A DNA stretch of 64,000 bases. Origin: Planococcus shixiaomingii (GTDB taxonomy: Bacteria; Bacillota; Bacilli; Bacillales_A; Planococcaceae). Every line of letters starts with the position of its first letter. Position 1 is the stretch's first letter. Shown in pieces: positions 7,749 to 56,021 of the stretch. The position numbers and the translations under genes are program-made. The notes under the pieces are model-generated. The model saw nothing but the letters and a program-made list of their open reading frames with translations. It did no database searches and was not told the origin of the DNA. The stretch lies in contig NZ_CP129236.1 in the NCBI RefSeq assembly GCF_030413615.1, positions 914,001 to 978,000 of the forward strand, in the 5' to 3' direction.

Positions 7749-8672
7749 ATGGAAATGATCAAGTATTCAGAGTGGAAAGATACGAAGATTACGCTGCATT
7801 TGCTGTCTCAAATTTTGGGGAAGATTCGATTAGAGGTTGCCCATCAGGAACCGCAATGGGCCCATGTTATGCTGCCTTTGACAGCGAATGGATTTTCGAC
7901 GGGCCTTCTTTATGGGGAAAGCCATATGTTCGAGGTGGATGTAGACATTCGGCATAGTCTTTTGCATATTCAAGTAGACGGTGAGACAGAGTCGATGAAT
8001 TTAAAGGATGGAACGGCAATCAAGGCTTATTATGAATTTGTTTTTCAAACTTTGGACCGGCTCGGTGTACCTGTCAGCATTTATCCAAAACCTCAGGAAA
8101 TGGACATAAGGGAGCCGTTGGACCAAGACACGACGCATACTGTCTACAAAGTTGAAGATGCTTTGCGAGGTTTAGAACTGTTACATTTTGCTTTGCGGGA
8201 AGAATTGAAGTTTATCGCGCCGCTGCGTTGCCGTAAGGTGAAGCCAGGTCTTTTTTGGGGCACTTTTGATGTGTCTACCATCATCATCTCAAATATACAA
8301 GAACCGTTTCCACAAGACAGAGTAATTGAAAAAGCAGCTTTTGACGAACAATTTATCGAATACGGTTTTTGGCTGGGAGATGATAAAACAGATACACCAA
8401 GTTTTTTTGTGTTGCCTTATCCGTTTCTTTATAAAGATTTAAATGCTCCTGCTTTAGAGCCGAAAGAAGCTTATTATGATGAGACAGTCAGTGAGTATTT
8501 TTTAAACATGGAAGCCATATTGGCATCGACCGACTCAAGCAATTATGTTCAGCGATTTTTCCATACGACATTTGACATTTTGACTGCTGAACTGCACTGG
8601 GAAAACTGCGATTATTACAGCACTCCTTTGCTGATGAAAAGTCAGCCGACACTAGCTAAAACGGATGAATAA
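7749..8672 (+). CDS. DUF5996 family protein
   Basis: About 307 residues from ATG 7749, chosen because GAAAGGGGAAG lies just upstream and the protein then begins near the conserved EWKDTKITLHLLSQILGKIR motif; the frame stays open 34 codons further up without a ribosome binding site. DUF5996 proteins share this N-terminus, a histidine-containing QVDGE region, and a C-terminal FFVLPYPFLYKD segment. No enzymatic role is established. It is soluble, has no signal peptide, and is ended by a terminator at 8694. Confidence 0.75.
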   Translation: MEMIKYSEWKDTKITLHLLSQILGKIRLEVAHQEPQWAHVMLPLTANGFSTGLLYGESHMFEVDVDIRHSLLHIQVDGETESMNLKDGTAIKAYYEFVFQTLDRLGVPVSIYPKPQEMDIREPLDQDTTHTVYKVEDALRGLELLHFALREELKFIAPLRCRKVKPGLFWGTFDVSTIIISNIQEPFPQDRVIEKAAFDEQFIEYGFWLGDDKTDTPSFFVLPYPFLYKDLNAPALEPKEAYYDETVSEYFLNMEAILASTDSSNYVQRFFHTTFDILTAELHWENCDYYSTPLLMKSQPTLAKTDE

Positions 8673-8840: not shown

Positions 8841-9965
8841 ATTAACTCTCTATATAACCCTTTATTCCAATCACTTACATTGCCAAACGGCGTCATCTTG
8901 AAAGATCGCTTGGGTGTTGCCCCGATGACCACCTACTCAGGAAACCCTGACGGTACGGTTTCTGATGCGGAACTTACGTATTACAAGCGGCGCTCTAACA
9001 TTGGCGACCTGTATATTTCTGCTTGCATCGCCATTTCAGAAAACGGCATTGCATTTCCAAACCAATTCATCGGTTTTGATGACCGCGTTATGCCGCGCTT
9101 GAAACAGTTGGCATCCGAAATGAAAGCGAATGGCAGCAAAGCCATCATTCAAATGCAGCACGGCGGCCGCCAAGGACAGCCGGAGCTTATCTCGACGAAT
9201 GAAACCGTAGCACCGAGTGCAGTAACAAGCCCAAACAGCACCACAGTTCCGCGGGAATTGACGAACGAAGAAATCCAAGCTATTATCCGTGATTTTGGCG
9301 AAACGACCAGAAGAGTCATTGAAGCTGGATTTGACGGTGTGGAAATCCACGGCGCCAATCATTATTTGCTGCAGCAATTTGTTTCTTCTTATTTCAATCA
9401 GCGCGATGACGAATGGGGTGGAACACTTCAAAATCGCTTGAAGTTTTCAATGGCTGTTCTAAAAGAAGTACAGGACATTGCCGCCAAATATGCAGATGAT
9501 AGTTTCATCATTGGCTACCGGGTATCACCGGAAGAAATCCATGGCGAAACGGTCGGGTATACGTTAGCGGAAACAAAAGTGCTGGTTGATTTGCTGATAG
9601 AAAACGGTGTCCATTACATTCACACTTCGCTGTTTGATTTTAAAATGCCGCCAGCAGGCGTTACCGAAGAAGGAAGCATCGTCAGCATTTTATCCAAGCA
9701 CATCAATGGCCGAGTGCCTTTGGTTGTAGTTGGAAGCGTGAAAACACCGCAAGACGCTTTGGAAGCTTTGCAAGAAGGAGCGGACATTGTCGCAATGGGA
9801 CGCCAAGTACTGATCGATCCGGAATGGACTGAAAAAGTAAAAGCAGGAAACGAGAAAGATATTTTTACTACTATTCCTAAGAAACGAGTCGGCAAGTTAG
9901 ATATTCCAGAGTCTATGTGGAACCTGATTACGTCTTACAAAATGGTGCAAGTAGCAGAAGATTAA
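8841..9965 (+). CDS. NADH-dependent flavin oxidoreductase (Old Yellow Enzyme family), apparent ATT start
   Basis: TIM-barrel FMN ene-reductase of the OYE/NemA group. Visible signatures: N-terminal YNPLFQSLTLPNGV, the flavin-binding APMTTYSGN, the MQHGGRQG region, the substrate-binding IHGANHYLLQQF and C-terminal VVGSVKTPQDALEAL with GADIVAMGR. It reduces activated alkenes or nitro compounds with NAD(P)H in the cytoplasm. The frame is open to a TTG at 8754, but AAGAGGA (8828-8834) points to ATT at 8841 (7 bases from the G run), giving the normal family N-terminus and 374 residues, the usual length. Family confident; start unusual. Monocistronic, ended by a terminator. Confidence 0.85.
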   Translation: MNSLYNPLFQSLTLPNGVILKDRLGVAPMTTYSGNPDGTVSDAELTYYKRRSNIGDLYISACIAISENGIAFPNQFIGFDDRVMPRLKQLASEMKANGSKAIIQMQHGGRQGQPELISTNETVAPSAVTSPNSTTVPRELTNEEIQAIIRDFGETTRRVIEAGFDGVEIHGANHYLLQQFVSSYFNQRDDEWGGTLQNRLKFSMAVLKEVQDIAAKYADDSFIIGYRVSPEEIHGETVGYTLAETKVLVDLLIENGVHYIHTSLFDFKMPPAGVTEEGSIVSILSKHINGRVPLVVVGSVKTPQDALEALQEGADIVAMGRQVLIDPEWTEKVKAGNEKDIFTTIPKKRVGKLDIPESMWNLITSYKMVQVAED

Positions 9966-49530: not shown

Positions 49531-50460
49531 ATGAGATTTTCAACTTTGAAAAAAACCGATCTCCAAATCTCTGTTCTAGGTCTTGGAACAAATGCGGTAG
49601 GCGGCCACAACCTTTATGAAGATTTAAGTGAAGAAGATGGAAAAAACTTAGTGCGCGCCGCGCTGGACCATGGCGTCACGTTCATTGATACTGCAGACGT
49701 TTACGGAGAAGGCCGTTCTGAGGAATTGGTCGGTGAAGTATTAAAAGACTATAAACGTGATCAATATGTGATTGCTACAAAAGGCGGCAGTGATTGGCGG
49801 AATGGAACAAAAGACAACAGCCCCGCTTATCTCCGCAGTGCCTTGGAAGATAGTTTAAAACGGCTGGGACTTGATTATGTTGACTTGTATTATATCCATT
49901 GGCCAGATGGTAAAACACCGCTCAGTGAAGCTGTAGATGAATTGTCTCGTTTAAAACAGGAAGGGAAGATCAAGGCGATCGGTGTTTCGAATGTCTCGCT
50001 CGAACAGTTAAAAGAAGCGAACTCCAGCCTTGAAATATCGGCGGTGCAGCTGCCGTACAATATGCTGAACCGGGAAATTGAAAACGACCTCCTGCCTTAT
50101 TGCGTCCAAAGCAATATTTCAGTTGTTGCGTACGGACCGCTTGCTTATGGAATTTTAGGAGGGACCTATACAGAAGATTTTGTGCTCGAAGAAGGGGACT
50201 GGCGCAATAGTTCACCATTATTCGAAGAAGGAAACTTCGAGAAAAATCTTCACAAAGTCGAACGCCTGAAAAAAGTGGCAGAAAAAAAAGGCACAGACGT
50301 ATCGAACTTGGCGCTTGCTTGGCTGCTTGAACAGCCAGGAGTTGATGCCGTCATTCCTGGAGGCAAACGGCCGGAACAAGTCCAATCAAATATAGCAGCG
50401 GCTGAAATTCGCTTAGAAGCTGAATTGATGGATGAAATCGAAGAGATTTTGCAAGATTGA
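49531..50460 (+). CDS. Aldo/keto reductase
   Basis: 309 residues. NAD(P)H-dependent TIM barrel with the catalytic Asp, Tyr, Lys and His in DTADVYGEG, IATKGG and YIHWPDGKT, and cofactor-binding VIPGGKRPEQVQSNI. Close in form to YrpG/IolS-type reductases that act on aldehydes and ketones in the cytoplasm. AAAGGGTG before ATG. Stands alone; the next unit is the riboswitch-controlled lipoate operon. Confidence 0.9.
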   Translation: MRFSTLKKTDLQISVLGLGTNAVGGHNLYEDLSEEDGKNLVRAALDHGVTFIDTADVYGEGRSEELVGEVLKDYKRDQYVIATKGGSDWRNGTKDNSPAYLRSALEDSLKRLGLDYVDLYYIHWPDGKTPLSEAVDELSRLKQEGKIKAIGVSNVSLEQLKEANSSLEISAVQLPYNMLNREIENDLLPYCVQSNISVVAYGPLAYGILGGTYTEDFVLEEGDWRNSSPLFEEGNFEKNLHKVERLKKVAEKKGTDVSNLALAWLLEQPGVDAVIPGGKRPEQVQSNIAAAEIRLEAELMDEIEEILQD

Positions 50461-50569
50461 AGCCTGATCAAAAAATAATCCTTAATTAAAGAATAGGAAA
50501 TTTCTTACTATTCATTGAACTCTATTTTGTATTATGATAAGCTTTCTGTAATTGGAAAATAAAAGTTGA

Positions 50570-50656
50570 CTACTGGGGGAGCCGATTACCGGCTGAGACA
50601 AGCATTGCTTGGACCCTTAGAACCTGATCTGGACCATGCCAGCGGAGGGAAGTAGT
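50570..50656 (+). promoter_or_regulatory. TPP riboswitch (THI element)
   Basis: The conserved thi-box elements are present: GGGGGAGCC, GGCTGAGAC (from 50591), GGACCCTTAGAACCTGATCTG and ATGCCAGCGGAGGGAAG. CTACT (50570-50574) pairs with AGTAG (50651-50655) as helix P1. TPP binding stabilises P1. GGGAAG at 50647-50652 can alternatively pair with CTTCCC (50692-50697) in the terminator 5' arm, so binding should favour termination. A TATGAT box at 50533 may be the promoter -10. The next gene is lipM, a lipoate gene, not a thiamine gene. Confidence 0.92.
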
Positions 50657-50685
50657 ATGCGAATGCTTCTTCTTTAAGTCTGCAT

Positions 50686-50720
50686 GCGCCGCTTCCCGAC
50701 ATGGGAAGCGGCGCTTTTTA
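50686..50720 (+). terminator. Riboswitch-controlled terminator
   Basis: GCGCCGCTTCCC and GGGAAGCGGCGC around GACAT, then TTTTTATTTT; its 5' arm can pair with the riboswitch 3' end, an attenuation arrangement. Confidence 0.92.
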
Positions 50721-50745
50721 TTTTCCATTAAAGAGGAGGGAAAAG

Positions 50746-51585
50746 ATGAAGGATACTTGGTTGTTTGTGGATTCAGGCCATTGCGCTCCATCATTCAATA
50801 TGGCACTTGATGAAGCTTTGTTGAATTGGCACAGCTTAGGCAAAATTCCGCCAGTGCTGCGCTTTTATGGCTGGGAGCCGGCCGGCATCTCAGTAGGCTT
50901 TTTTCAGAAAGTGGATGGGCAAATTGATTTAGAAGGAGCCCGTAAATACGGAATTGAACTGGTGCGGAGGCAAACCGGTGGAAAAGCGGTTTTGCACGAC
51001 CAGGAATTGACTTATAGCGTCATCGTTTCGGAAGAACATCCGGCCATGCCAAAATCGATTAAAGAAGCGTATCTTGTTTTGTCCAAAGGGCTGCTTGAAG
51101 GCTATAAAGAACTGAAGATTGACGCAGAATTCGCAACGCCCGGGAGTGCAGGGATGAAAACCGGTTCGGCCGTTTGTTTTGAAGAACCTTCCTGGTATGA
51201 GTTGGTAATTGAAGGGAAGAAAGCAGCTGGAAGCGCGCAAACACGGAAAAGCGGCGTCATTCTTCAGCACGGTTCGATCCCGCTCGAAATCGATGAAATC
51301 AAACTGTTTGATCTGTTTCTTTATCCGAGTGAACGAGCAAAAGAGCGCGCAAGGAAGGCGTTCGGCAATCGTGCAGTCGCCATTAACGATGTCTTGCCAA
51401 GTGCCGTCAGTTTTGAGCAAGCGAAAGCCGCCTTTAAAAAAGGCTTTGAACAGGGCCTGGACATTGACTTGCAGCCATATGAACTGCCGCCTCTTTTGTT
51501 GGAGGAAGTTTCAATCTTGGAAAAGAAGTACAAAAGCGAGGATTGGAATAACTTGAGGGAGAGAAAGGAAGTGCATCAACCTTGA
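50746..51585 (+). CDS. lipM: Octanoyltransferase LipM
   Basis: 279 residues from ATG 50746 (AAGAGGAGGG upstream). Matches B. subtilis LipM through [49 protein letters not shown] (catalytic Cys144) and [20 protein letters not shown]. LipM moves octanoyl from acyl carrier protein to the glycine cleavage H protein, the first step of lipoate assembly. It overlaps lipA. A TPP riboswitch lies directly upstream. Confidence 0.93.
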
Positions 51586-52526
51586 CGAGAAATAAAGAGT
51601 ACGTGCGCAAACCCGAATGGCTAAAAGTAAAATTGAACACGAACGAATCTTATACCGAACTGAAAAAGCTGATGCGGGAAAAAAATCTGAATACCGTTTG
51701 CGAAGAAGCAAGATGCCCAAATATCCATGAATGCTGGAGCGTTCGGAAAACAGCGACATTCATGATTTTAGGCGACACATGCACGAGAGCATGCCGTTTT
51801 TGCGCTGTTAAAACAGGGCTTCCAAACGAACTTGACTGGGGAGAGCCGGAACGGGTCGCTGAATCTGCTGAAATCATGGGCTTGAAGCACGTCGTGGTCA
51901 CCGCCGTCGCAAGAGATGACTTGAAAGATGGCGGGGCCGCTGTTTTCGCCGAAACCGTCCGCGCCATCCGCCGCAAAGTCCCTGGATGCACCGTTGAGAT
52001 TTTGCCTTCAGATATGAAAGGCGATTATGAAAGTTTACATATGTTAATGGACAGTGAGCCGGATATTTTCAATCACAATATTGAAACCGTTCGCCGCTTG
52101 ACGAAACGCGTAAGAGCGGTTGCGACTTATGACCGGTCACTAAAGCTGCTTGAGCGTGTAAAAGAAATTGCACCACACATTCCAACTAAATCCAGCATTA
52201 TGGTGGGCCTTGGAGAAACAAAAGAGGAAATTGAGGAAACGATGGATGATCTGCTCGCGCATAACGTAGACATTATGGCAATCGGCCAATATTTGCAGCC
52301 GACGAAAAAACATTTGGATGTTGTCCGGTACTATCATCCGGATGAATTTGCAGAGCTGAAAAAAGTTGCCTTGGCAAAAGGATTTAAGCATTGTGAAGCC
52401 GGTCCAATGGTCCGTTCTTCTTATCACGCGGATGAACAAGTCAGTGAAACGTCTGCACAGCGCCGGATCAAGTACATGAAAGGCTACGAATCACAAGGCA
52501 AGCAGCTGGAAAGCGCGGAATTCTGA
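51582..52526 (+). CDS. lipA: Lipoyl synthase LipA
   Basis: 314 residues. Two [4Fe-4S] clusters: [12 protein letters not shown] (Cys40, 45, 51) and the radical-[11 protein letters not shown] (Cys67, 71, 74), plus the C-terminal RSSYHADE motif. It inserts sulfur into octanoyl groups to complete lipoate. The start is probably TTG 51582, overlapping the lipM stop (TTGA), with AAAGGAAG upstream. Both steps of endogenous lipoylation are thus cotranscribed. Confidence 0.95.
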
Positions 52527-52804: not shown

Positions 52805-53686
52805 CTACACTTTTGGCAAGTCATTCACTAGAGAGATGAATGACCGGGAAGTGAAAGAAACATAGCGGTTTTTTGCCATGATGATGCCAAGCACCCACGG
52901 AAATGTGGTGGTCAGTGAGATAGTTTTAAACGGACCATCTTTAACTCGATGGCAAATAAGTTCTGGCATCAACGTGACTCCTAAGTTTTTTTCAACCATG
53001 CCTACGATAAAATCCCATTGCGAGCTTTCATAAGCAATTACAGGTTCAAATCCTTGGCTGCGGCAAAATTCCCTCGTGCGGCTGTTCAAAGTAAATTCCT
53101 TGCTTAACAATAAAAACGGATCATCTTTAAATTCAATCAAATCGATGACATCCCGATCAGCAAGAGGGTGAGATTTGTGCACAAGCAATTTGATTTCTTG
53201 ATGAACGAACGGAACCACATCAAACTTTTCTTCATCGACCGGCAGCATAACAAAGCCGAGATCGACTTCTCCATCAATAACTTTCTTCTCCACTTTTTTT
53301 GCGCCGTCTTCTGCCAACATGATGGAAATATCGGGGTAGGCCTTTTGGAATTCCGCAATAATTGTTGGGAAAAACAATGTGCTTATGACTGGAGGAAGGC
53401 CAATTTTAATTTTTCCTTTCTTTAAATTCATCACATCGTAGAGTGAAGTCGATAAATCATCCATGCCATTGAGGAGTTTCTGTGCCTGTTGAAAAACCAC
53501 TTCTCCAGCATCGGTTAAAACGATTTGCCGGGAAGAGCGGTCAAAAAGCGTAACATCCAACTCTTCTTCCAAATTCTTTACCATCTTGCTCAAACTTGGT
53601 TGCGATAAATGCAATGCCAGAGCAGCTTTTGTAAAGCTTTTAAATTTAGCTACTTCAATAAAGTACGAGAGCTGTCGAATATCCAC
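52805..53686 (-). CDS. LysR-family transcriptional regulator
   Basis: 293 residues. Helix-turn-helix at the N-terminus (DIRQLSYFIEVAKFKSFTKA, LHLSQPSLSKMVKNLEEEL) and a periplasmic-binding-like effector domain. GTG start after AAAGGGTG. Divergent from the GntP permease and 3-hydroxybutyrate dehydrogenase genes, which it probably activates. A palindromic ATAA-N7-TTAT site lies between them. Confidence 0.9.
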   Translation of the reverse strand: MDIRQLSYFIEVAKFKSFTKAALALHLSQPSLSKMVKNLEEELDVTLFDRSSRQIVLTDAGEVVFQQAQKLLNGMDDLSTSLYDVMNLKKGKIKIGLPPVISTLFFPTIIAEFQKAYPDISIMLAEDGAKKVEKKVIDGEVDLGFVMLPVDEEKFDVVPFVHQEIKLLVHKSHPLADRDVIDLIEFKDDPFLLLSKEFTLNSRTREFCRSQGFEPVIAYESSQWDFIVGMVEKNLGVTLMPELICHRVKDGPFKTISLTTTFPWVLGIIMAKNRYVSFTSRSFISLVNDLPKV

Positions 53687-53700
53687 AAATTCACCCTTTC

Positions 53701-53715
53701 ATAACTAATAGTTAT
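53701..53715. promoter_or_regulatory. LysR-type operator candidate
   Basis: ATAACTAATAGTTAT is a perfect palindrome and fits the ATAA-N7-TTAT consensus described for CcpC/CitR-group LysR proteins. A half-related TTATAGTTATTAT follows at 53721. Confidence 0.6.
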
Positions 53716-53898
53716 AGGACTTATAGTTATTATTCATTTTACCTATCTTTAATTAAAGTGTACACTGAAAAAAGTAATCTAGTCACAATATTGTAACAAT
53801 TTATTCTTTTTCTGCCAGATAAAGAAAGCGGTTTCAAAAGGGTGAATTGTTCAAGGTGTTTTTAAGGGGATTTCAAAACAAGTAAGGGGGAGAAAGAA

Positions 53899-55218
53899 AT
53901 GTTAAGTATGATCGGTTTAGTTGGAGGCCTTGCATTGCTCATTTATTTGACAATGAGAGGAATGAACTTGCTTATTGCAGGTCCATTATGCGCACTTATT
54001 GTAGCATTATTCAGCGGGTTAGCGCTTTTCCCGCAAATGGTTGGAGAAGGGGAAGCAAATTTATTAACTAATTACATGACAGGATTTTCTGGATTTATTA
54101 CATCTTGGTTCCCGATGTTCTTATTAGGAGCGATTTTCGGTAAAGTTATGGAAGACAGCGGGGCGGCCGACAGCGTCTCGAAATGGCTGGTTGGAAAGTT
54201 TGGCTTAAAACATGCCGTTTTTGCAATTGTATTTGCTTGTGCCGTGTTAACATTCGGAGGCGTCAGCTTGTTCGTTGTGGCATTCTCTGTTTACCCGATG
54301 GCACTTAGCTTGTTCAAAGAAGCAGATCTTCCGCGCCGCTTTATTCCAGCAGCATTAGCTTTAGGGTCGGTTACATTCACGATGACATCAGCTGGATCGC
54401 CGGAAATTCAAAACTGGATTCCAATTCCCTTTTTAAATACGAGTCCATATGCAGGATGGGAAGCAAGTATTCTTGTAGCCGTATTTATGGCGGTGTTAGG
54501 CTACTGGTGGCTAAAACGCATGATCAATAAAGCGGTTCACAAAGGCGAGCGTTTTGTCGCACGCGACACGGATCCGATTGTGGCAAATCGTGCTTTGCCG
54601 AATCCGTTAATGGGATTGATTCCGTTATTAGTAGTATTGGTTATCTCATTTATTTTCCATGATTCACTAAAAACATCAGCATTGATCATTGCGCTATTAG
54701 GCGGAGTTATTTCTACGTATCTACTGAATAGAAAGTATTTCCAGAACATCGGAAAAGCATTAACTGAAGGAACAATCGGTGCATTAATTGCTATTGGTAA
54801 CACGGCGGCCGTTGTCGGATTCGGAGCAGTTGCTAAAGCAGCTCCTGCTTTTACAGTCGCAGTTAATGCGATGACTGATATTCCAGGAAGCCCGCTAATC
54901 GGCGGAGCGATTGCCGTCAGTGTAATTGCAGGAATGACTGGATCTTCATCTGGCGGGCAAACAATTGCATTGCCGCTGCTGGCTCCGCATTACTTGGATA
55001 TGGGCGTCAATGCAGAAGCGCTTCACCGGACAATTGCCATTTCATCCGGAGCACTTGATTCACTTCCGCATAACGGATACGTGGTAACGACAATTCAAGG
55101 AATTTGTGGAGAAACGCATAAAGCAGCATACGCTGCAGTAGGGGCATTGACAGTAATTGTGCCGGCTCTTGGTACGATACTTGCGATAATTTTGTTCTCG
55201 TTTGGCTTTGGACTATAA
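53899..55218 (+). CDS. GntP-family permease, probably for 3-hydroxybutyrate
   Basis: 439 residues with about 12 membrane helices; GntP-family features include TNYMTGFSGFITSWFPMFLLG and the AGMTGSSSGG loop. It matches YxjC of B. subtilis, which sits with ketone-body genes. Together with the 3-hydroxybutyrate dehydrogenase downstream (27 bases) it suggests uptake and oxidation of 3-hydroxybutyrate. AAGGGGG precedes ATG. Substrate is inferred from the neighbour. Confidence 0.88.
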   Translation: MLSMIGLVGGLALLIYLTMRGMNLLIAGPLCALIVALFSGLALFPQMVGEGEANLLTNYMTGFSGFITSWFPMFLLGAIFGKVMEDSGAADSVSKWLVGKFGLKHAVFAIVFACAVLTFGGVSLFVVAFSVYPMALSLFKEADLPRRFIPAALALGSVTFTMTSAGSPEIQNWIPIPFLNTSPYAGWEASILVAVFMAVLGYWWLKRMINKAVHKGERFVARDTDPIVANRALPNPLMGLIPLLVVLVISFIFHDSLKTSALIIALLGGVISTYLLNRKYFQNIGKALTEGTIGALIAIGNTAAVVGFGAVAKAAPAFTVAVNAMTDIPGSPLIGGAIAVSVIAGMTGSSSGGQTIALPLLAPHYLDMGVNAEALHRTIAISSGALDSLPHNGYVVTTIQGICGETHKAAYAAVGALTVIVPALGTILAIILFSFGFGL

Positions 55219-55244
55219 ACGAGAACCTTGGAGGGTATTAACAA

Positions 55245-56021
55245 ATGGTTGAAAATAAAGTCGTTTTGATTACAGGGGCAGCAAGTGGAATCGGTTATGA
55301 AATCAGTGTGGATTTCGCCAAAGCTGGCGCCAAAATTGTTTTAACGGATATTAACGAAGAAGCCGTAACAAAAGCGGCAAAAACCTTAACAGACCAAGGC
55401 TTTGAATGCATTGGAATGAAATGTGATGTAACAAGCGAAGAAGATTTGAAACGAGCAATCCATGAAACTGTAGAGCGCTTTGGTTCACTGGATGTCCTGA
55501 TCAACAATGCAGGCATGCAGTTCATCTCACCGATTGAGGAGTTTCCGACTGAAAAATACGAGCTTCTAATCAAAATCATGTTAATTGCACCGTTTGTCGC
55601 AACTAAGCACGCATTTCCAATTATGAAAAAGCAAGGATTTGGCCGCATCATCAATATGGCTTCCATTAATGGATTGGTCGGCTTTGCCGGAAAAGCGGCT
55701 TATAACAGCGCAAAACACGGTGTCATCGGCTTGACGAAAGTGGCAGCACTTGAAGGGGCGGAGCATGGCATTACAGTCAATGCGATGTGTCCCGGATATG
55801 TAGATACTCCGTTAGTGCGCAACCAGCTGAAGGATTTGGCTACAACCCGCAACGTTTCTTTAGAAAAAGTGCTGGAAGAAGTAATTTATCCACTGGTTCC
55901 ACAGAAACGTTTGTTGACTGTCCAGGAAATTTCAGATTACACGATGTTTTTGGCGAGCGATAAAGCTAGGGGAGTTACAGGCCAAGCTGTCGTGCTTGAT
56001 GGCGGCTATACAGCTCAATAA
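55245..56021 (+). CDS. 3-hydroxybutyrate dehydrogenase
   Basis: 258-residue SDR. TGAASGIGYE cofactor motif, NNAG, catalytic Ser in MASINGLVG and YNSAKHG (Tyr, Lys). The MCPGYVDTPLVRNQL and VPQKRLLTVQEISDYTMFLAS segments match D-3-hydroxybutyrate dehydrogenase (YxjF type). It makes acetoacetate from 3-hydroxybutyrate. scoAB CoA-transferase genes usually beside it are absent here. Confidence 0.9.
   Translation: MVENKVVLITGAASGIGYEISVDFAKAGAKIVLTDINEEAVTKAAKTLTDQGFECIGMKCDVTSEEDLKRAIHETVERFGSLDVLINNAGMQFISPIEEFPTEKYELLIKIMLIAPFVATKHAFPIMKKQGFGRIINMASINGLVGFAGKAAYNSAKHGVIGLTKVAALEGAEHGITVNAMCPGYVDTPLVRNQLKDLATTRNVSLEKVLEEVIYPLVPQKRLLTVQEISDYTMFLASDKARGVTGQAVVLDGGYTAQ

Follow-up and report, generated by a model that had tools for sequence, protein, structure and literature searches.

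The lipM-lipA operon of Planococcus shixiaomingii lies in a window of 64 kb, by which we mean the whole stretch of DNA analyzed, and comprises these two genes and no further one. Its upstream neighbor is an aldo/keto reductase-like gene ending at position 50460, and its downstream neighbor is a LysR-type gene on the opposite strand. The features of the operon and its leader are the following.

50515..50543, + strand: candidate promoter, read from the sequence (TTGAAC at 50515-50520, 17 nt, TAAGCT at 50538-50543, TG at 50535-50536)
50565..50667, + strand: TPP riboswitch aptamer (RF00059; 79.3 bits versus 54.3)
50647..50697, + strand: proposed antiterminator, pairing the aptamer 3' strand (GGGAAG from 50647) with the terminator 5' arm (CTTCCC to 50697)
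50686..50724, + strand: intrinsic terminator, stem at 50686-50714 with 13 pairs, then TTTTTATTTT
50734..50739, + strand: lipM ribosome-binding site, AGGAGG, assigned from the sequence
50746..51585, + strand: lipM, predicted octanoyltransferase of the LplA/LipB/LipM fold, 279 aa (PF21948, PF03099)
51582..52526, + strand: lipA, lipoyl synthase (radical SAM; TIGR00510), with its TTG start at 51582 inside the lipM stop

A covariance search matched the entire TPP model RF00059 (positions 1-105) to 50565-50667 of the plus strand with 79.3 bits (E 5.3e-14), well over the gathering score of 54.3 bits, and this is the sole Rfam match above a gathering score within the 64-kb window. The sequence-only reading, which had named a thi-box here, is borne out as to the element, and the start that it gave, 50570, is to be moved 5 nt upstream. 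The terminator that it described is likewise present, and its statement that no thiamine gene lies between riboswitch and lipM holds in the window, where there is no room for any gene. The distance from aptamer to lipM is 79 nt in the window, 91 nt in genome G185 and 73-96 nt in 25 fetched leaders, which include one from G084, a genome of a different genus. The leader of the window folds at -68.7 kcal/mol (z -5.7). Its candidate promoter is a weak match to the consensus and is absent from the output of a promoter scan, which gave no entry for the plus strand of the leader; a similar TG-n-TA layout upstream of the aptamer in relatives is at most suggestive. Between the terminator stem and the lipM ATG (50746) there are 31 nt, ribosome-binding site included, a distance too short to hold an ordinary promoter; nor does the scan list one in this stretch of the window.

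The assignment of LipM as a catalytic domain protein is supported by matches to PF21948 (140.9 bits) and PF03099 (75.3 bits). The protein scores far below the cut-off of the ligase models, as does the gcv-locus LipM of a congener, and it falls in one tree with the gcv-locus LipM of Bacillales, the gcv-linked gene of this order being the one that we take to be lipM. Residue C144, presumably the catalytic cysteine, is invariant in eight sequences. No NCBIfam LipM model matched; the name comes from homology to gcv-linked LipM, and octanoyl transfer to GcvH is predicted. LipA matches TIGR00510 with 406.8 bits (cut-off 310.25). Both genes were the only copies found in the genome, lipM being the only full-length one: the other two LipM matches belong to a single protein of 330 residues, which is the lipoate-protein ligase LplJ (TIGR00545, 465.7 bits, cut-off 280), and lipoate scavenging should therefore be possible. 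The possibility of a second lipA or a second full-length lipM elsewhere in the genome was thereby rejected. A LipL-like protein is encoded as well (397.8 bits, just below the cut-off of 400). The genome thus resembles the Bacillus-type LipM-LipL-LipA pathway in having LipM, LipA, a LipL-like protein and LplJ; it differs in that lipM and lipA form one operon behind a TPP riboswitch, whereas in that pathway lipM resides at the gcv locus. As described in PMC10332631, LipM serves GcvH, and LipL hands the group on to E2 subunits. Farther downstream in the window, positions 52805-56021 encode a LysR-type regulator nearest CidR, a distant GntP-like permease and a 3-hydroxybutyrate dehydrogenase, likely a cluster for the use of hydroxybutyrate.

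Taken together, sequence, folding and analogy make it likely that lipM-lipA is controlled by a TPP-sensing transcription-termination OFF switch. Without TPP, the 5' arm of the terminator would pair with strands of the aptamer, forming an antiterminator, and RNA polymerase would read into lipM-lipA; the classical partner in such an antiterminator would be the GGGAAG found in the 3' strand of the aptamer. Binding of TPP would hold the aptamer and its P1 helix together, the terminator would form, and transcription would end before lipM. The established part of this model comprises anatomy, pairing potential and conservation. The core columns of the aptamer are invariant between the window's lipM aptamer and the tenA, ykoF and thiT aptamers of the same genome, the core is intact in all 17 lipM aptamers aligned, the aptamer helices are 97.5-100% paired across 16 leaders, and a terminator with a T-run is present in all 26 lipM leaders examined. 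The design is that of the tenA-type TPP riboswitch of Bacillales, with which the leader shares the aptamer, the terminator and the ligand-free pairing of arm and aptamer, and a similar leader precedes tenA in the same genome; the difference is that the lipM leader targets lipoate synthesis. By analogy with these homologous switches, TPP would be bound, transcription would terminate in the cell, and lipoate would drop.

The pairing of GGGAAG (50647-50652) with CTTCCC (50692-50697), on which the sequence-only reading had built its switch, fares less uniformly. Both strands are present, and they pair in the minimum-energy fold of the window transcript lacking the 3' arm of the terminator; in the ensemble, computed on the transcript up to the terminator loop, the pairing is partial: of the 9.0 arm bases that pair with the aptamer on expectation, 3.5 do so in this textbook antiterminator. 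The leader of L011 is partial in the same way (3.9 bases). What is common to all 26 lipM leaders (25 of the genus and that of G084) is a ligand-free ensemble in which 6.2 to 12.1 bases of the terminator 5' arm pair with the aptamer and P1 is not formed. The aptamer 3' strand is the main partner of the arm (at least 6 bases) in 14 of 19 window-like leaders, in 4 of 5 Jeotgalibacillus leaders and in both tenA controls. In the three closest relatives of the window (L006-L008) it is a minor partner, with 0.3 to 1.0 bases, and other aptamer strands dominate. In seven leaders of the G026 type it contributes 0 to 1.9 bases, the arm being taken mainly by other aptamer strands. The terminators of these seven (L021-L023, L025, L053-L055) are weaker (-11.3 to -16.5 kcal/mol), and their expression platform has diverged from the window type.

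Comparative evidence was obtained from 16 aligned window-like leaders. The OFF structure, that is, the aptamer helices and the terminator, pairs in 99.4% of cells. Five of its pairs are changed on both sides, a number reached by 3 of 500 shuffles, and the two of these that lie in the terminator are common to one clade of four sequences and may be single events; the count of pair types is not above that of shuffled alignments (460 of 500 reach the same). For the antiterminator, pairing is possible in 97.3% of cells (10 of 500 shuffles), and a single pair is changed on both sides, a number also reached by 423 of 500 shuffles. P1 and the terminator each draw on columns that the antiterminator uses, and the two states of the expression platform are thus predicted to be mutually exclusive. 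By prediction, then, the OFF logic holds and the exact antiterminator varies between lineages.

The synteny comparison that the sequence-only reading had proposed gave a clear picture within the genus. A search for LipA over 46 genomes (those among the named loci belonging to Planococcus and Planomicrobium) found the window type in 26 (86-100% identity), another type in 19 (71-74%) and none in one, G002, which has no lipA at E 1e-30, carries lipM at the gcv locus and is rated 100% complete. A TPP aptamer precedes lipM in all 26 operon-type genomes, the window's included, and in G084, and LipM identities within the operon-type set reach down to 59%. Since every operon-type genome carries it, the TPP-lipM-lipA arrangement is more than chance or an accident of one genome. 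Among the 20 non-operon genomes, none of ten lipM loci scanned has a TPP aptamer before lipM, and five lipA loci gave no TPP match; the ten lipM genes sit at the gcv locus, as judged from open reading frames or from a distance of ~7 kb from accC. A thiamine gene conserved in the interval from riboswitch to lipM, which the sequence-only reading had named as a refuting condition, was looked for and rejected: the 26 operon genomes of the genus have no such gene, and neither do the five Jeotgalibacillus genomes with the operon. In genome G022 (C1:2684333-2685273), lipA is represented by two overlapping pieces (87 and 82%) behind the TPP-lipM leader, reflecting a frameshift or an assembly error.

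The arrangement also occurs beyond the genus. From a scan of named loci, 80 were kept, of which 32 have lipA adjoining lipM; nine of these 32 have a TPP match before lipM and 23 do not, so that the operon works without the riboswitch elsewhere. No TPP match before lipM was found in the 48 named loci without adjacent lipA. The nine comprise six from Planococcus or Planomicrobium, at least four of which are already among the 26 genomes, so that the counts are not additive, and one each from Jeotgalibacillus terrae, Oceanobacillus massiliensis and Peribacillus deserti. Planococcus citreus DSM 20549 (L084) is a named strain with the cassette. Five of 12 Jeotgalibacillus genomes have the order TPP-lipM-lipA-TPP-tenA-thiM-thiD-thiE-thiW. 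The LipM proteins of these five are 90-100% identical, and all five are of this operon type; in the loci fetched from the seven genomes with LipM of 56-60% identity there was no TPP match. Oceanobacillus massiliensis is the only case with an intervening gene: its locus (L080, 4899-7782) has, in order, the TPP riboswitch, an SDR gene of family PRK08642, lipM and lipA. In Planococcus G018 (L041, 2598-3359), a gene of the same SDR family neighbors thiG and a ThiF/MoeB-family gene, and this SDR is a possible, as yet unassigned member of the thiamine regulon. In Peribacillus deserti (G523), ~125 nt separate the terminator from lipM, which makes another promoter possible there. This genome has seven TPP aptamers, with closely spaced, tandem-riboswitch-like pairs at C3:159817-160214 and C5:169026-169528. 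In a class-wide sample of 398 genomes, LipM matches occurred in 278; 29 loci were scanned, and the eight with a TPP match all belong to the window's genus or to G084. Counts outside Planococcus and Jeotgalibacillus are lower bounds, the scan having covered a minority of the upstream regions of the 150 family genomes and of the 278 class genomes with a LipM match.

How the operon came to Planococcus can be read in part from the trees of LipM (52 rows) and LipA (36 rows), in which the window type stands among operon genes of Virgibacillus, Oceanobacillus, Halobacillus, Thalassobacillus and Jeotgalibacillus and is separate from the gcv-locus LipM and the other LipA of the genus itself. At the gcv locus of the window genome, the order is gcvT, gcvPA, gcvPB, a rhodanese gene and a gene for a B12-dependent ribonucleotide reductase; between the end of the rhodanese gene at 8559 and the start of the reductase gene at 8973 (L266) there is no native lipM, the gene that a congener has there. 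Tree placement and the empty site together suggest that, in part of Planococcus, gcv-linked lipM and native lipA both gave way to an apparently foreign operon. Judging from trees and gene order, this operon would be akin to the ones in Halobacillus, Virgibacillus and Oceanobacillus and would have joined the thiamine regulon. In part of Jeotgalibacillus, an operon of the same type has predicted TPP control. The cassette occurs in at least four neighborhoods within the genus, with only lipM-lipA common across the stretches compared (12 loci), and the neighborhood in G084 is, by eye, apparently a fifth.

In a tree of leaders, a group of 17 lipM leaders (16 of the genus and that of G084) is separated with moderate support (80/98) from 21 tenA leaders of Planococcus, which suggests that the lipM riboswitch element is probably old and inherited; the leaders of J. 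terrae, P. deserti and O. massiliensis are on long branches and are not safely placed. A tree of accC (44 of the 46 genomes, without G004 and G185) is compatible with a single gain as well as with several: the best tree implies three changes, and its well-supported branches force only one. In the LipA tree, the P. deserti protein sides with the other LipA type, and lipM and lipA of this species may therefore differ in origin.

Why TPP should govern lipoate synthesis may be understood from the thiamine economy of the genus. The other three TPP riboswitches of the window genome precede tenA-thiM-thiD-thiE-thiW, ykoF together with transporter genes, and a gene for a ThiT-type transporter. ThiC was found in none of the 46 genomes (13 of 14 control genomes were positive), and TPP should hence report imported vitamin or precursor. 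A cell with no ThiC would depend on imported thiamine or its precursors, and high TPP would mark a vitamin-rich setting in which lipoate could be scavenged by LplJ; with scavenging possible, the costly synthesis (SAM, Fe-S sulfur, octanoyl-ACP) would be turned down. Lack of ThiC was also considered as an explanation of which species have the switch and was rejected: other congeners lack ThiC too and manage without the switch, which also argues against vitamin supply as the whole account. We infer that the most likely use of the switch is TPP as a proxy for vitamin supply, and we prefer this to a matching of the two cofactors. Repression of the cell's sole LipM and LipA when thiamine is plentiful would seem expensive, unless leaky expression or scavenging is enough. 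The chance appears to us about even that TPP acts as a general vitamin-supply signal, that the thiamine regulon of thiamine-importing Bacillales took in the de novo lipoate pathway, and that the riboswitch decides between making and scavenging the second cofactor of the same complexes, a link kept in at least two genera that may have arisen several times.

Cofactor matching, toward which the sequence-only reading had leaned, would employ the same OFF mechanism: low TPP would raise lipoate and thereby prime the 2-oxoacid dehydrogenases and the glycine cleavage system. TPP (on E1) and the lipoyl group (on E2) are cofactors of the same 2-oxoacid dehydrogenase complexes, and the single copies of LipM and LipA fit such a role. 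An OFF switch, however, lowers lipoate when TPP is high, which is the opposite of joint supply, and we regard this reading as doubtful. The logic would be simpler with an ON switch, in which TPP binding promotes read-through and high TPP goes with lipoate synthesis, and a point in its favor might be seen in the closest relatives of the window, whose ligand-free fold is not chiefly the textbook antiterminator. The terminator is compatible with aptamer and P1, however, the ligand-free terminator arm of the 26 leaders pairs almost exclusively with aptamer strands, and the design is that of the tenA leader in the same genome, all of which renders an ON switch highly improbable. A change of ligand, such that the aptamer now senses, for example, a lipoate-related compound, would fit the target genes and found no other support; with 79.3 bits on the TPP model and core columns shared with the genome's tenA, ykoF and thiT aptamers, it is scarcely credible.

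It is also conceivable that the arrangement is accidental, as the sequence-only reading had allowed for: the operon may have landed behind a TPP riboswitch, or a thiamine gene behind the riboswitch may have been lost, leaving an element that is now neutral or weakly active baggage. The SDR gene retained between riboswitch and lipM in O. massiliensis speaks for such a history, as does the position of its family next to thiG and a ThiF/MoeB-family gene in one Planococcus, and the TPP-tenA operon that follows immediately in Jeotgalibacillus is an obvious source of a riboswitch. Were it neutral, an element that halts transcription of such genes would be expected to decay, yet the riboswitch is kept in all 26 genomes despite the divergence of LipM (down to 59% identity), with T-run terminators throughout and an intact core in the 17 aptamers aligned. 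Retention of the cassette across several neighborhoods, the separation of lipM from tenA leaders (80/98), which points to a probably old element, and its presence in all five Jeotgalibacillus of the operon type argue in the same direction. Loss of a thiamine gene may thus describe the origin of the arrangement and hardly its retention across species, neighborhoods and genera; as an account of the present state, accident is improbable.

Set against known systems, the lipM leader belongs to an established class of riboswitch, and its target is new and conserved. Cobalamin riboswitches act on B12-independent isozymes, that is, outside the synthesis of the cofactor itself; the lipM leader is alike in placing a cofactor sensor on a functionally linked enzyme, and differs in that its target is the synthesis of a second cofactor of the same complexes. 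It falls outside the classical TPP regulon, whose targets are thiamin synthesis and transport, its own being lipM and lipA. Sun et al. 2013 (PMC3766115) describe TPP regulons of ~1800 genes in 249 genomes in two categories, thiamin biosynthesis and transporters of thiamin or its precursors, and the string 'lipo' occurs 0 times in the main text of that paper. In the accessible text of PMC12452182, lipoate is mentioned a single time, in connection with GcvH under glycine riboswitches. No report of TPP-riboswitch control of lipoate genes was found in the open-licence full-text literature.

The TPP riboswitch described here is placed on the supply of lipoate, the other cofactor of the pyruvate, 2-oxoglutarate and branched-chain dehydrogenases. 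It would constitute an unusual riboswitch-based cross-talk between two cofactors, and it leads to the specific prediction that thiamine lowers lipoylation, for which congeners with and without the switch provide a natural comparison.
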